From Halisarca cf. caerulea (taxonomy: Eukaryota; Porifera; Demospongiae; Chondrillida; Halisarcidae), in NCBI GenBank assembly GCA_963170055.1, contig CAUJGJ010000444.1, positions 6,675,618 to 6,739,617 of the forward strand: a stretch of 64,000 nt of DNA, given 5' to 3'. Position numbers and translations under genes: made by a program. The notes beneath the pieces are model-generated. The model was given only the letters and a program-made list of their open reading frames with translations, made no database searches and was not told the DNA's origin. Numbering within the stretch: position 1 is the first letter of the stretch; each line of letters begins with the position of its first letter. Below, in pieces: positions 17,392 to 38,985 of this stretch.

Positions 17392-17557
17392 CACTTAGGG
17401 GCAAATTACCCCGGTATAACACGTCGTGCGAACTGACCTGAAAATCGTTGGAATCCACGCTTAAACGTGGACCGCGATTATAAAGGTGCCAGTTTATGCG
17501 ATCCCACGCGTTCCGTTGCAAGCTCTCGCGTTTTCCAGATCCCACTTTCGAGGAAGG

Positions 17558-17565
17558 TATAAAAG
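17558..17565 (+). promoter_or_regulatory. TATA box of the P2RX7_C gene
   Basis: TATAAAAG lies about 220 bp before the chosen start codon. The related copy at 36.4 kb has TATAAAAGG in the same place relative to the terminus, which supports a real promoter. Confidence 0.55.
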
Positions 17566-17785
17566 CGAGCTGATGCACCATGTGCGAAAATAAACATGGC
17601 CATCGTATCTCGAATTTGAAAAGCGCGCTACAAAGTGGGCCGGCCTTCTTCTCTCAAAATCAATATCTATCAAGCTGAAACGTTCGAAAATCGGGTAAAC
17701 CTACGGATTTAGGACCGATCATTAAAGTGCGCCGCGCATGGGCCGATTTTCGAACGTGCAGCTTTTTCGGGGCGTAAACCTGGCT

Positions 17786-18433
17786 ATGGCTGGAAGAATC
17801 CGTGCAGCGACTAACAACGACCAACCGTCACATTCTAGGCCTCGAATAGCCGAGGACAATGTATTTGTGCTAGGAGGAGTACAGAATTCGATGCAAGTCT
17901 GCATAAGCTGTTTCTGTGATCCTTGCATTGCGGACCCAGCATTTAGGCCAAGCTTCATCAAAGGGTCATCAGCTTCTAACCCTGGCAACATAGTAAAGAG
18001 ATACAAACTCTATAAAAAGACTTGGTCTTTTCTCCGGAGGGTGGGTCTGTGGGATTTTCTGCCATATAAGGAGAAAAAAGAGAAGATGGGTCACAGGGAT
18101 TCACCAAGAGACATCATCCCATGGTGTATGAAACAAGTATGTACATCCAAACATACACATATAGCATGGCATTGTTGTGTTGAACACTTCTCACAGAAAC
18201 ATACCAGTTAAGTGGACACTCACAAAGTTGAAATGTAATTCAGTATTAGTTCATTTGTGATATGTATAATGGCCCAAATCAATAACGAGCTACATATATC
18301 AAAAGATGAACATTTCAACATGCCAATAGATTTCACTGCCATAACTTACTTCATTCCACAGGAAATTCGCAGACGATTTCCTAACCCCCCTGGTGTACCG
18401 TACAAGGACCACAAGTGGAGTGCTGATGCATAG
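17786..18433 (+). CDS. P2X7 C-terminal (ballast)-like domain protein, two exons
   Basis: Exons are 17786-18136 and 18362-18433 (GT-AG, phase 0), giving 140 residues. The Met at 17786 is preferred over the earlier one at 17738 because the copy at 36667 aligns from the later Met. The protein has a Cys cluster (CISCFCDPC), then YKLYKKTWSFLRRVGLWDF, then RDIIPWCMKQ spliced to EIRRRFPNPPGVPY. The ending pattern, a basic-aliphatic Trp-Cys followed by IR..FP...G.Y, is that of the P2RX7_C domain. That domain forms the cytosolic ballast of vertebrate P2X7 channels and occurs free-standing in many invertebrate proteins. No channel part or membrane segment is present. Its role in the transposon is unknown; accessory DNA or zinc binding is a guess. 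Confidence 0.72.
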
Positions 18434-18452
18434 GTCATGCACTCAAAATTCT

Positions 18453-18483
18453 ATATGGAAGAATCCAAAAGATTCTTCCATAT
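18453..18483. repeat. Perfect 13-bp hairpin after P2RX7_C gene
   Basis: The arms ATATGGAAGAATC and GATTCTTCCATAT enclose a CAAAA loop, 20 bp past the stop codon. It could be a 3-prime UTR structure; no function is shown. Confidence 0.6.
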
Positions 18484-18647
18484 TCTATATATATTATATT
18501 TTATATATAAAAGATTCCTTGTCATGTGTGGAACATTGTGTTATGCATAGAGTAAATTCCCCCATTTGTCATAACTCACGAAATATAGATAGGGTTGTCG
18601 CACCTCGCACTCAATCCTCAAACTGCATGGGGCCAGAGTACTCAGTG

Positions 18648-18662
18648 AAGTGTGTGTGTGTG

Positions 18663-18741
<79 letters not shown>

Positions 18742-18745
18742 ATTT
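18648..18745. repeat. (GT)n microsatellite
   Basis: A long nearly pure GT run lies between the convergent genes of the TTAA element. The long opposite-strand frame 18611-19201 runs through it but is not the transposase C-terminus, which ends at 18918 in another frame. Confidence 0.95.
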
Positions 18746-18917
18746 ACAATGTAATGTGATGTAGTTCACATGATCAGAGTCTCCATCATCATATACTAGA
18801 GGTTCTGCATGGAATACGTCAATGAAGGGATGATCTTCCCTGACATCACCACTGTACATGGAAAATAGTATTAAATGAGGTACATGTTCAGGTGACTGTC
18901 TGACATTCTGGCACTCA

Positions 18918-21161
18918 CTATTGGACAGATTCTTCTGCAGCTGGGTAGCTTGCCACACCACTAACTTGATGCACCCACCTCGTCCAAACTTTCCAACGAA
19001 AATTGTCTGTCTTTGCTTTGCGACATTTAAAAGGGGTGCGGCGGTTTGGACGACGGACATCAACCACCTGTTTTTCGCTGGTGATCTCTCTGTCGACATT
19101 CTCATTCTAGTATACAATGACATGTCCATTAACAGTTGGCACTTTAAATCTATGTACAAGCAGCAGCTTACCCAATCCATGACAGCAATGTCCATCCTCA
19201 TGTGGTATGCTGCATCACCAAAATGGATTCTCTTTGGTAGGTATGACAGGAGGGCATGGTTGAACGATTCAACCCAAAATGTGTCACGACACTACAATCA
19301 ACAGTATAATTGGCAAAATTTGTAATATATGCATATGTATATATAATATGTAAATATTTCAATGTTTGTAATGCATACTCACACGAGCATAACTGTCTGC
19401 ATGCCTGTATATGGCCAGGGACTTTATTTTCTTTGAAAAGGCATCTATTGCTTGAGGATCTGTCAAGATGTCCTTGTTTGCAGTATAATTGGGCCTCTTG
19501 CAATAGGAAGTGTGGTGGCAGCCTGCATGGTTGTCCTGCATAAGGTATATGAAAGACATTTTACACAGCATTCCATAATCCTAGTTGGATATAGAAAATA
19601 CCTTATAGTGCTCTACAATATTTATCAGCAGCTCCCGTAAACGCTGACCTGAACCACCACAGTTAGCCATGGCCCAGTAAGCATGGCGCTTGGTACTGGC
19701 TCCTGCAGTGTATATAGTATCCCATTGACGTATGCATCCAGTATATATATGTTCAATTTGACACAACTCACTCTTGTCACTTATTTGCGGGTGCCACTTC
19801 ACTCCCATGTCCCGTTTTGCCCCCACTGCAATGCTTTTCATGGCATTTGCAACCCTTTTGTGCCTGTACATTTGAGTAAAAAGGAATGTAGTTCCTACAA
19901 GGGATTATGGTACAGTTTCAAATGTATTCTCACCATGCCAGGTATCATAACTATTTTCATATCCTGCTTCTTCCAGCTTCTTTGTGAGCTGAATATTCAT
20001 GTCATGGGCCACCTCTTTCACACCCAGACCTGTACCAAAAGTGGGCCGTGCAAAACCTTCACACAAATGTTAGAACACTGCACCCATGTTTGGAAATAAT
20101 AAACATACCTCGGTCCTGAACAGCACTAAGTACCATCATGGTAGCATCCACCTCACGGGTTTGTGCCACTCTATGTGTTTCCCTGGAGAGGGATTGAACC
20201 CCAACAATCTTGTGTGTCTGTCCAAGGATGCATGGCACAGTGGTGTGATATGCATTTGATGTGGAGTCGTGGCGAGCATCACAGATGACCCACTATTTAA
20301 TAGATGGAAAGATAAGTCTAAGAATATAGTTACTAGCTGTATAAGAATGTACAGTATGAAAGTAACGGTGTGAATTTGAATGCGTACCGCAGGAATATCT
20401 TCTTTTGCTTTATACTCTAATATGGCTGCACTCATAGAGGCTTCTGCCTCTTCATGGATTGCATCCATGTAACTTCTGGTGTGGTACACTATTCATGACA
20501 TAAGACGTAAAGAGAGTAATTCGAAAATGAAACATGCATATGACCAGAGATTATAACTTGATGTTATGAAATTGTCAACCCACTTCCTGCAATGTAATGG
20601 TCATTAACATGACCTATCTTAGCAGCCTTGCTCATGTTTTTGTACTGCTGTGGCAGTACACCAGCCATGGTGAAGGCATGTACCATCCTGCAGTGAAGCA
20701 GTCAAAATTACCCAGCCTGTGTTACTCAATGAACAGAAGAACACTGCATGTACATATAAGTAAACATACCGTGCATTGACTGCAAAGCGATCACCTAGGA
20801 TGGAGGAGCTGAGCCAGCGCCTTTTGTTCTTGCATCCGGGGGCCATACAAACAACATCAGCACAGATGACATGCCCTTTCATGATACTGTCCTCAATCTT
20901 CCAAGCAACAGTGTTGCAGGTGGGGCATCTTCTGGTGACTTCTTGCACAAACAACCTCAGTTGCTGTTCTTCACAAATGTGAAGCTGCCCTCCTTGGTCA
21001 GGGTTATTCACCATGATCTGTCTGTGATCAGATGCGGTCTGGGAGCTATCCTCTGACCTGGAATCCAAACTCCTCTCATAGTGGCCAAGAAGTTCTTCAA
21101 AGACATCGCTGTATGTTACAGCTCCGAGCCTTGAAGAAAGCCTGTCTCTGACAGCTTCCAT
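18918..21161 (-). CDS. DDE transposase of the TTAA element, ten exons, one frameshift
   Basis: Exons, 5-prime to 3-prime: 21161-20770, 20687-20584, 20488-20388, 20292-20109, 20029-19934, 19863-19772, 19702-19602, 19535-19383, 19291-19172, 19106-18918. All have GT-AG borders and all phases agree, giving about 510 residues. Exon 1 has a zinc-binding CPTC...C...C segment. Likely catalytic residues are Asp in ICDARHDST (exon 4), Asp in EVAHDM (exon 5) and Glu in FWVESFNH (exon 9). Also seen are DTWHG, KRHAYWAMANC and the ending DWNENVDRE. I recall this motif order from multi-copy invertebrate proteins; Kolobok membership is inferred from the TTAA target. One base is missing near 19857, which breaks the frame between TKG and VANAMK. 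Otherwise the gene is intact. Confidence 0.78.
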
Positions 21162-21472
21162 CCGCTGGGAAATGCTGGTCTTGTGAAGCTTTTCTGGCGT
21201 TCTTCAGTGTCGACCGTCGAGAAACATTAGAATAATGTTATAATCTTCTTCAAAAGGTCGGAAACTTCCAAATCGCTAAAGAAATACATATTTTTCATAT
21301 GAATATTACGCTATTGTACGTATTTGCACCACTATGTGTCATTCTGTATTTGTATGGACTGTTAACTACACAGTGCACAAGTAATAGTTCCTATGTTTGA
21401 TGTACTTATTTCCAACAGTGGCAGATTTCCGCCATTTTTTCGTCAAAACGCAAAACCGGATGCATCACGCCC

Positions 21473-21480
21473 CTTTTATA
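21473..21480 (-). promoter_or_regulatory. TATA box in the right terminus, transposase promoter
   Basis: On the minus strand TATAAAAG begins 14 bases inside the right end, about 310 bp before the transposase start codon. The terminal repeat itself therefore seems to carry the core promoter. Confidence 0.5.
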
Positions 21481-21501
21481 CTCGCGGTCCACGTTTAAGT
21501 T

Positions 21502-36340: not shown

Positions 36341-36348
36341 ATGCTTAA

Positions 36349-37017
36349 ACGTGGACCGCAAGTACATAAACTACCGCGGGTATGATCTTACGCGGTCTGT
36401 TCACGATTAACGCGTTTCTCGAGTTCGCCCAGCTTCAACTGGTATAAAAGGGGCGTGAGGAGCATTGCAAATGGCCGTCTTTCTTTGCGATTTGAAAAAG
36501 CACGCCTAAAGGGTGAGCAATAAACCCAAGGTTTAGGGACGGACAATCACTCGCAAACACTTGCATCCACCCGAATTTCGATCCAATGACACTAAGTGCA
36601 CTGAATTTGCTGTTTTCGTCCGTATCGCCGTCAAAATCGATTTTTAGAGCTTTTTCGGCGCGAAGAATGGCAAGGAGCACACGAGGACCAAATGAAAATG
36701 ACCAGCCGTCACATAGAAGATGAAGAGTTGATGCTGTGCACGTGTTAGGAGGAAGTTCTACTTCGCAGGAACTATGTGTATACTGTTTCTGCGATCCGTG
36801 CGTGGGAAACCAGGCCTTCCTCCCAGATTTCATTAGAGGATCAGCCTCTCCAGATCTAAGCAATGTTGCTAGAAGATTCCGCCTATATAGGAAGGTCTGG
36901 TCCTATCTCAGGCGACTTGGGTTGTGGGATTTTCAACCCTACAAGGCGAGAAAGGGGAGGGCAGGACATGGCAATGCAGCAAGGGACATCATACCTTGGT
37001 GCATAAAACAAGTATGT
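36349..37017 (+). mobile_element. Truncated second copy of the TTAA element (left end)
   Basis: TTAA at 36345-36348 is followed by ACGTGGACCGCAAGTA, the same terminus as the 17465 element. A TATAAAAGGGG promoter (about 36442) and a P2RX7_C exon follow. The copy stops at the exon donor (CAA/GTATGT, 37014). A piggyBac C-terminal relic follows shortly after. The transposase and right end are gone. Confidence 0.75.
36667..37013 (+). pseudogene. Broken P2RX7_C-domain gene
   Basis: It aligns from its Met (36667) with the protein encoded at 17786: the shared NDQPSH start, CVYCFCDPC cluster, YRKVWSYLRRLGLWDF, and RDIIPWCIKQ before the same donor site. A TGA at 36721-36723 interrupts the frame after 18 codons, and the second exon (the IR..FP..G.Y part) is missing. 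Conservation beyond the stop shows that it was once a full gene. Confidence 0.75.
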
Positions 37018-37049
37018 CTATAATAGTAGCAAACCCTGTCTATAATAGG

Positions 37050-38466: not shown

Positions 38467-38843
38467 CAGCTATCATCATCACAGACTGTAACCACAGATC
38501 TCCCTAAGGCCCCGTTTACAAAATAGTTTGCAGAGTTGGCAATTCTTATACGGACAATGTATCCACAATGAAGATTTCATGTTTGCACGATGTGGCGCAA
38601 CCTAGTTTCGGAAGTATGCTAATGAGAAAACAAGCAATTCAAGTATAGAAAACTTGTGGGCCGCCTATTGGCCCTGGAAGCTCAAATCGCTTGGAAATTA
38701 TCGCTATTCACGAAACTAACACTACAAAGATCTCTTCTGCTCCAAAAGACTCTTCGCTGATGAAATGAGGAGCAAACGTTCCAATTTTGTCGAATTATAG
38801 CCGAGAATCGAGTACCGTCTTAACGTCTGCCATATTGTTGACA

Positions 38844-38844
<1 letters not shown>

Positions 38845-38902
<58 letters not shown>

Positions 38903-38985
38903 TATATCGACATCGTTCCGGACCTTACGAACACTTCCGGTGAAAGTAAAAATAATATAGGGGCTGCCTTCTGGCGGCCCAAAAA
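38845..38985 (+). repeat. (TA)n plus GGGGCTGCC dispersed repeat, copy 4
   Basis: A long TA run, then a block with CGTTCCGGACC and ACACTTCCGGTGAAA, then AATATAGGGGCTGCC and GGCGGCCC. It corresponds to the copies at 26.0 and 33.5-34.0 kb and lies just past the 3-prime end of the minus-strand OTU gene. Confidence 0.75.

Follow-up and report, generated by a model that had tools for sequence, protein, structure and literature searches.

What is a small gene reminiscent of the cytoplasmic ballast of the P2X7 receptor doing opposite the transposase of a sponge transposon? This question is raised by positions 17461-21498 of a 64,000-nucleotide stretch of the genome of the sponge Halisarca cf. caerulea (assembly GCA_963170055.1, contig CAUJGJ010000444.1, positions 6,675,618 to 6,739,617), which is called the window here. 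A first, sequence-only reading of the window had described a TTAA transposon in which a ten-exon DDE transposase gene converges on a gene for a 140-residue protein with the pattern of the P2RX7_C domain (Pfam PF20478). Based on the analysis of all copies found in the genome, we put at about three in four the probability that the unit is a DNA transposon that targets TTAA, with a dead transposase in this copy, and that it is distantly related to the Kol0 lineage of Kolobok elements and carries a reduced KolX gene opposite its transposase gene.

The unit itself is real and is bounded as the sequence-only reading had it. The 13-bp sequence ACGTGGACCGCGA is found exactly at 17465-17477 (plus strand, left end, on the KolX side) and at 21482-21494 (minus strand, right end, on the transposase side), and a TTAA stands outside each end, at 17461-17464 and 21495-21498. 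When up to two mismatches were allowed, the end sequence matched the window three times (0.39 expected), a number reached in none of 100 shuffles. In the 194.5-Mb genome, TTAA followed by a window-type end with at most one mismatch occurs 45 times, compared with no occurrence in a reversed control. Pairing of these ends gave 13 near-full-length units of 3.9-4.65 kb (namely, L039 to L047, L049 and L051 to L053), which fall into four subfamilies, and three shorter derivatives with paired ends (L048, 1.9 kb; L055, 0.85 kb; and L050, 0.69 kb), while L054, L056 and L057 are incomplete or degenerate copies. All 13 near-full-length units are bounded by TTAA at both ends and have 5'-AC termini. Between the window copy and members of the other subfamilies, blastn matches are confined to the exons and the ends.

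Duplication of the TTAA target is taken as shown for three sister insertions (L040, L042 and L051), which sit in repeats of which unoccupied copies exist elsewhere. With the flanks joined at one TTAA, the identity across the join to the unoccupied counterpart is 88% for L040 (138 of 204 bases aligned, one gap), 82% for L042 (155 bases, six gaps) and 95% for L051 (all 204 bases, no gaps), and the counterparts read a single TTAA. More diverged copies of the L040 target repeat, likewise without a duplicate, read CTTAG (L020) or CTAAAA (L017 and L004), and the other satellite units at the L051 target mostly read TGAA, one of them TTAA, again without a duplicate. The window also contains, at 38720-38971, one member of a dispersed repeat; it corresponds to the L040 insertion site without the insertion and has a single TTAA. 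No unoccupied counterpart was found for the insertion of the window copy itself, whose target duplication is assigned by likeness to the sister copies.

Exon models bore out two convergent genes within the unit: a DDE transposase gene on the minus strand and a two-exon gene for the 140-residue protein on the plus strand. The transposase gene is intron-rich, and its exons number at least 11 rather than ten; in the window they lie at 20770-21184 (exon 1), 20584-20687 (exon 2), 20388-20488 (exon 3), 20109-20292 (exon 4), 19934-20029 (exon 5), 19772-19863 (exon 6), 19602-19702 (exon 7), 19383-19535 (exon 8), 19172-19291 (exon 9), 18919-19106 (exon 10) and 18770-18851 (exon 11, the last one modelled, which has no stop codon). 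Because none of five models from different copies reaches a stop codon, a further, last exon is likely. Exon 4 encodes the first aspartate in the motif DARHDS, exon 5 the second aspartate and a DxxH motif, DTWH, and exon 9 the putative catalytic glutamate in VESFN. In the protein of L051, D227, D293, D312-T-W-H315 and E439 are colinear in the alignment with the D of DxRxDS, the second D, the DxWH motif and the E of the Kol0 transposase, and would serve the same catalytic roles. A GT/TG microsatellite (18650-18740), which is longer in L051, separates the 3' ends of the two genes.

In the window copy the transposase gene is broken. The start region present in L051 and L053 is absent: homology to exon 1 of L051 starts only at base 47 of that exon, a stretch of 247 bases of L051 is lacking at 21184, and the 5' part of exon 1 is lost together with the start codon. 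In addition, a one-base gap relative to L051 shifts the frame of exon 6, and with these two defects the window transposase gene is a pseudogene. Open copies exist elsewhere in the genome. The transposase exons are present in all 13 near-full-length units, and the five modelled copies (L051, L053, L040, L043 and L046) translate without a stop; their splice sites agree apart from the donor of exon 3, a GC in L043 and roughly placed in L046. An in-frame stop lies in exon 3 of L049, where L046 has none. At the nucleotide level, all 11 exons of L041, L042, L044, L045 and L052 align to those of L040 free of gaps, exon 3 of L041 over 96 of its 101 bases.

The DDE transposase of the unit is a distant relative of the Kolobok (Kol0) transposases. 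For this comparison the Kol0 reference was the copy linked to PF20478 in this same genome, not a Repbase entry. When the window-type transposase was compared by tblastn with the transposases adjoining canonical PF20478 genes (the eight best PF20478 loci with 1.5-kb flanks), matches with E-values of 8e-7 to 1e-12 and identities of 21-26% were found in six of the eight loci. The protein of L040 passes the Pfam profile PF20700 (Mutator-like transposase) with 27.5 bits against a cut-off of 26.5, and a Kol0 frame (in L059) reaches 25.9 bits, just below it. The L051 protein has no PF20700 match and nothing convincing in Pfam. A match to Mut7-C in the Pfam scans (E 0.03-0.11) is below that profile's own cut-off and was taken as chance. 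No THAP match was found in Pfam for the window-type transposase, and an NCBIfam scan of the L040 transposase gave no match. The closest named relatives, with 33-48% identity, are sponge and coral proteins, including PF20700 proteins of Halichondria panicea, Ephydatia muelleri, Amphimedon queenslandica, Montipora and Acropora; not all named matches carry PF20700, and they were compared as proteins. In the tree, the window types form one supported clade, and the Kol0 branch is 8.4 changes per column long, so the exact relation between the two is unsure.

The small gene, in contrast to the transposase gene, is intact in the window. Its first exon (17786-18136) runs from the start codon to IIPWCMKQ and ends at the donor GTATGT, the frame and the splice site being kept in four subfamilies, and its second exon (18362-18433) is EIRRRFPNPPGVPYKDHKWSADA, stop included. 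The copies L051 and L053 share this coding sequence letter for letter. The sequence-only reading would have been refuted by copies without this gene, yet its exons are present in all 13 near-full-length units, and in 12 of them the start codon, donor, acceptor and open frame are all kept; the exception is L047, the sole near-full-length unit in which the start is lost. The deletion derivative L048 (1.9 kb) has lost most of the transposase and still has an open KolX gene. A second copy in the window, represented by its left end at 36345-37032, belongs to subfamily B (97.8% to L040) and has a premature stop in KolX exon 1; to the right of this fragment, a comparison with L040 gave no additional match in the window. 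In L061 (3186-3692) and L062 (2448-2942), intronless KolX genes adjoin diverged window-type transposases in the same convergent layout; the KolX intron has been gained or lost within the window-type clade.

As to what the small protein is, the sequence-only reading named the absence of a P2RX7_C profile match as a refutation, and in form this is the outcome for the window protein. PF20478 does not match the 140-residue window protein at E<=1, nor does it match the relatives P0001, P0017, P0019, P0020, P0021, P0022, P0024, P0027, P0028, P0029 or P0034. The relative P0018 gives E 0.028, below the cut-off, and P0032, a weak relative of the family (E 1.3e-3), passes PF20478 with 32.4 bits. A search of the PDB with the window-type family profile found no P2X7, whereas the canonical KolX of the same genome matches the solved P2X7 with E 5e-17. 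A remote and partial relation was found by profile-profile comparison alone. Window-type against canonical KolX scored 36.5 (best of 60 shuffles, 22.3); with deeper alignments, hhalign gave a probability of 95.6 and a score of 55.7 (best of 100 column shuffles, 20.2) or, for the five window subfamily proteins alone, a probability of 88.2 and a score of 40.7 (best of 100 shuffles, 28.1). The aligned C-terminal half comprises N..R..xYR and, after some 20 inserted residues, RDIIPxC, VR..FPNPP and PY, and by the hhalign result the C-terminal motif IPxC...IRxxFP..G is shared with P2RX7_C by homology. We thus regard the window protein as probably a reduced KolX, related to canonical KolX over its C-terminal half.

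That the small protein is no relative of P2RX7_C, and that its zinc-cluster and FP-G motifs match by chance, would agree with the failure of PF20478, of the PDB sequence search and of a Foldseek search to find the domain. The two hhalign scores far exceed those of the shuffles, however, and the gene stands in the same place and reads in the same direction next to a homologous transposase, so chance resemblance is very improbable. The proteins of the P2RX7_C or ZCD family, which include the P2X7 tail, NANOR and invertebrate proteins (several animal relatives bear the database name 'P2X purinoceptor 7-like'), share with the window protein the C-terminal N..R..xYR, IPxC, IRxxFP and G; they differ from it in their Pfam match and in lacking the 20 or so residues inserted before IIPWC. 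The cysteine cluster, which the sequence-only reading had counted as part of the P2RX7_C pattern, lies outside the aligned part. Compared with canonical KolX, the window KolX lacks the CC and CIT cysteines and has a C-x2-C-x-C-x2-C cluster instead. The window protein has five cysteines; of the 22 family rows, 15 include the C-terminus, and in these three cysteine columns are kept in 15 of 15, one in 14 of 15 and one in seven of 15. The window-type KolX family thus has four invariant or nearly invariant cysteines, and not seven as in the zinc site of P2X7 (PMC9587614).

A link between P2RX7_C and transposons, of which the sequence-only reading knew no description, was published for Kol0 in 2022. 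In the parts of Kojima & Bao (2022, PMC9587614) covered here, the Kol0 lineage of Kolobok is described as having a second protein, KolX, with the ballast domain of P2X7, the match being to P2X7 residues 476-595; P2X7 is proposed to have originated by fusion with KolX, NANOR is given as a likely domesticated KolX, and other Kolobok lineages carry unrelated second proteins. Apparently new is a very distant clade of intron-rich transposases, with 5'-AC termini and without a THAP match, that has a reduced KolX of its own. No KolX-carrying clade with 5'-AC ends was met in the literature within the covered part of that paper, its supplementary files and Repbase being outside the scope.

Kol0 elements also exist in the Halisarca genome, so that the two types can be compared side by side. 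One bounded Kol0 unit, at C369:2223065-2226688 (L059 from 3566 into L060), is 3.6 kb long, has TTAA and 19-bp perfect ends (AGGGACACTGCCACCAAAA), and contains a THAP frame, an open 609-residue transposase frame and a PF20478 gene. Common to Kol0 and the window type are the TTAA duplication, a DDE transposase with DxxH and a separate KolX, and the gene order of Kol0 in this genome is likewise convergent. The two differ in that the core of the C369 transposase is one long frame preceded by a separate THAP frame, whereas in the window type at least 11 exons were modelled and THAP was not matched, and in that the window KolX is reduced.

The coupling of the small gene to a transposase holds across the genome for both types. 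PF20478 has 47 matches at 45 places, and at 31 of these 45 a Kol0 transposase is matched no more than 5 kb away, convergent in 29 of the 31. When the 34 of the 45 P2RX7_C places that are on contigs of known length were placed at random, 0.59 of them on average and four at most fell next to a Kol0 transposase. A window-type transposase was found within 6 kb of 26 of the 33 window-type KolX places, as counted with 55 of the listed transposase matches, and all 26 are convergent; the 26 include a weak KolX match overlapping a transposase on C40, without which the count is 25 of 32. The proposal that transposons spread relatives of P2RX7_C is therefore upheld for this genome.

The other TTAA-specific superfamily, piggyBac, was compared with the unit as well. 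A piggyBac element would have the same target, and a five-cysteine KolX resembles the proteins of a few piggyBac families, which are described as similar to the C-terminal part of KolX and as lacking most of the seven cysteines (PMC9587614). The transposases, however, are unrelated: neither the spliced L051 and L040 proteins nor the exon frames of the window match PF13843, and the window-type transposase matches Kol0 and, in the case of L040, PF20700. In addition, a compared piggyBac match was found within 6 kb at only one of the 45 P2RX7_C places and only one of the 33 places of the window type (116 of 508 candidates were scored, giving 119 listed matches, 116 of which were compared), and we give practically no credence to the unit being a piggyBac element. 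A link between KolX and piggyBac was searched for in this genome and was not seen among the candidates scored. The genome has at least 119 piggyBac-type PF13843 matches on the same scoring, many of them without stops, which represent a further TTAA-specific load.

Selection on the two genes was estimated with a custom Nei-Gojobori script on nine representative pairs of subfamilies. KolX has dN values of 0.19-0.38; its dS is saturated in seven of the nine pairs, and the remaining two, each with a dS of 1.19, give omegas of 0.16 and 0.18. The transposase has dN values of 0.18-0.33, and its dS could be measured in a single pair (omega 0.09), the other eight being saturated. Subfamilies C and D are the closest pair in both genes. 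Between subfamilies, then, both genes look constrained by purifying selection, which the sequence-only reading had proposed to look for.

These data bear on whether KolX is cargo, that is, a host ballast gene captured once and without part in transposition. Vertebrates did fuse the ballast domain to a receptor (PMC9587614), and the function that we give KolX in transposition is one that we infer. Against cargo, the convergent order is kept in two very distant transposase clades, at 29 of the 31 coupled places in one and at all 26 in the other; L061 and L062, diverged and with an intronless KolX, keep the order of the pair; and dN is similar for KolX and the transposase, with synonymous sites mostly saturated. 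Cargo is thus unlikely. Because the gene has stayed under constraint and in an unchanged order beside two distant transposases, a role of KolX in transposition or in its control would explain the data better, and between the two possibilities raised by the sequence-only reading the evidence favours a second transposition protein over cargo.

In the reading that we prefer, a transposon with a reduced KolX, the transposase would recognise the ends, excise the element and insert it at TTAA, as suggested by its family and by the target duplication. KolX, read inward from the end opposite to that of the transposase, would belong, as a second protein, to the transposition complex or to its control, and its four conserved cysteines may hold one zinc. 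The window copy would be mobile only with transposase made elsewhere. A TATA-like sequence, GTATAAAAGGGGC, lies directly inside the transposase-side end (21469-21481, minus strand) and is found there in all 13 near-full-length units; it may be the promoter of the transposase gene. Since this box abuts the end, the promoter may be shut when transposase occupies the end, so that transposase would limit its own production. The P element is a precedent for a transposase that shuts its own promoter.

A narrower version of the role in control, with KolX acting outside the transposition complex as a repressor or as an antagonist of host silencing, is possible, though we consider it the less probable course. 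Some plant Mutator-like elements encode anti-silencing proteins, and KolX is a small separate gene reading inward from the opposite end. The second slot moreover differs among Kolobok lineages, so its function need not always be the same (PMC9587614). On the other side, no silencing-related domain appears among the Pfam matches of KolX or its relatives. A wider and decidedly speculative reading takes the TTAA target as the common denominator, since relatives of KolX occur in Kol0, in the window clade and in some piggyBac (PMC9587614). KolX might then be an old obligatory partner of TTAA-specific transposition, kept by two clades so distant that the tree branch between them is close to saturation, cut down in one of them to the C-terminal half and a one-zinc site, with relatives in some elements of the unrelated piggyBac superfamily, and the human P2X7 ballast might be a former target-choice or strand-transfer factor; we think this rather unlikely in full.

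A guanine-nucleotide role for KolX was also considered, prompted by the use of GTP by P transposase, and was given low weight. The ballast of P2X7 binds GDP (PMC9859053), and according to the part of Rump et al. drawn on here, only R546 and R578 of the GDP-site residues of the rat are conserved in invertebrate proteins, while the sponge domain may still bind GDP. R574 and K583 are replaced in the canonical KolX alignment also.

Several observations weigh against a Kol0-related transposon with a reduced KolX. The relation to KolX is limited to 50-75 residues at the C-terminus, with no alignment of the N-terminal cysteine cluster. For P0006, a relative 55% identical to the window protein, a predicted AF2 model built from 22 sequences (mean pLDDT 73, pTM 0.62) found no PDB chain with Foldseek, and the ballast fold is thereby neither shown nor excluded. 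The termini differ, being 5'-AGGGACACTGCC (RR, 5'-AG) in the C369 Kol0 unit and 5'-ACGTGGACC in the window type; as Kolobok termini are given as 5'-RR ... YY-3' (PMC9587614), the 5'-AC termini are the reason why we file the window type as Kolobok-related and not as Kolobok proper. Inverted ends were searched for at L061 and L062 and were not found. No listed transposase lies near seven of the 33 window-type and 14 of the 45 canonical places; our guess is that these are fragments or decayed copies. Lastly, selection looks relaxed within subfamilies, with eight nonsynonymous changes to one synonymous in KolX between L046 and L049 and three to none between L040 and L041, as is expected for decay after insertion.

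In short, the P2RX7_C genes of one animal genome mostly adjoin a transposase (31 of 45 places), and a second, distant clade of transposons keeps a cut-down KolX that Pfam misses. If KolX does act in transposition, this cut-down form would narrow the part of the domain needed for it to the C-terminal half, and the window-type KolX, being small, may serve to study the function that the ballast of P2X7 had before its fusion to the receptor.

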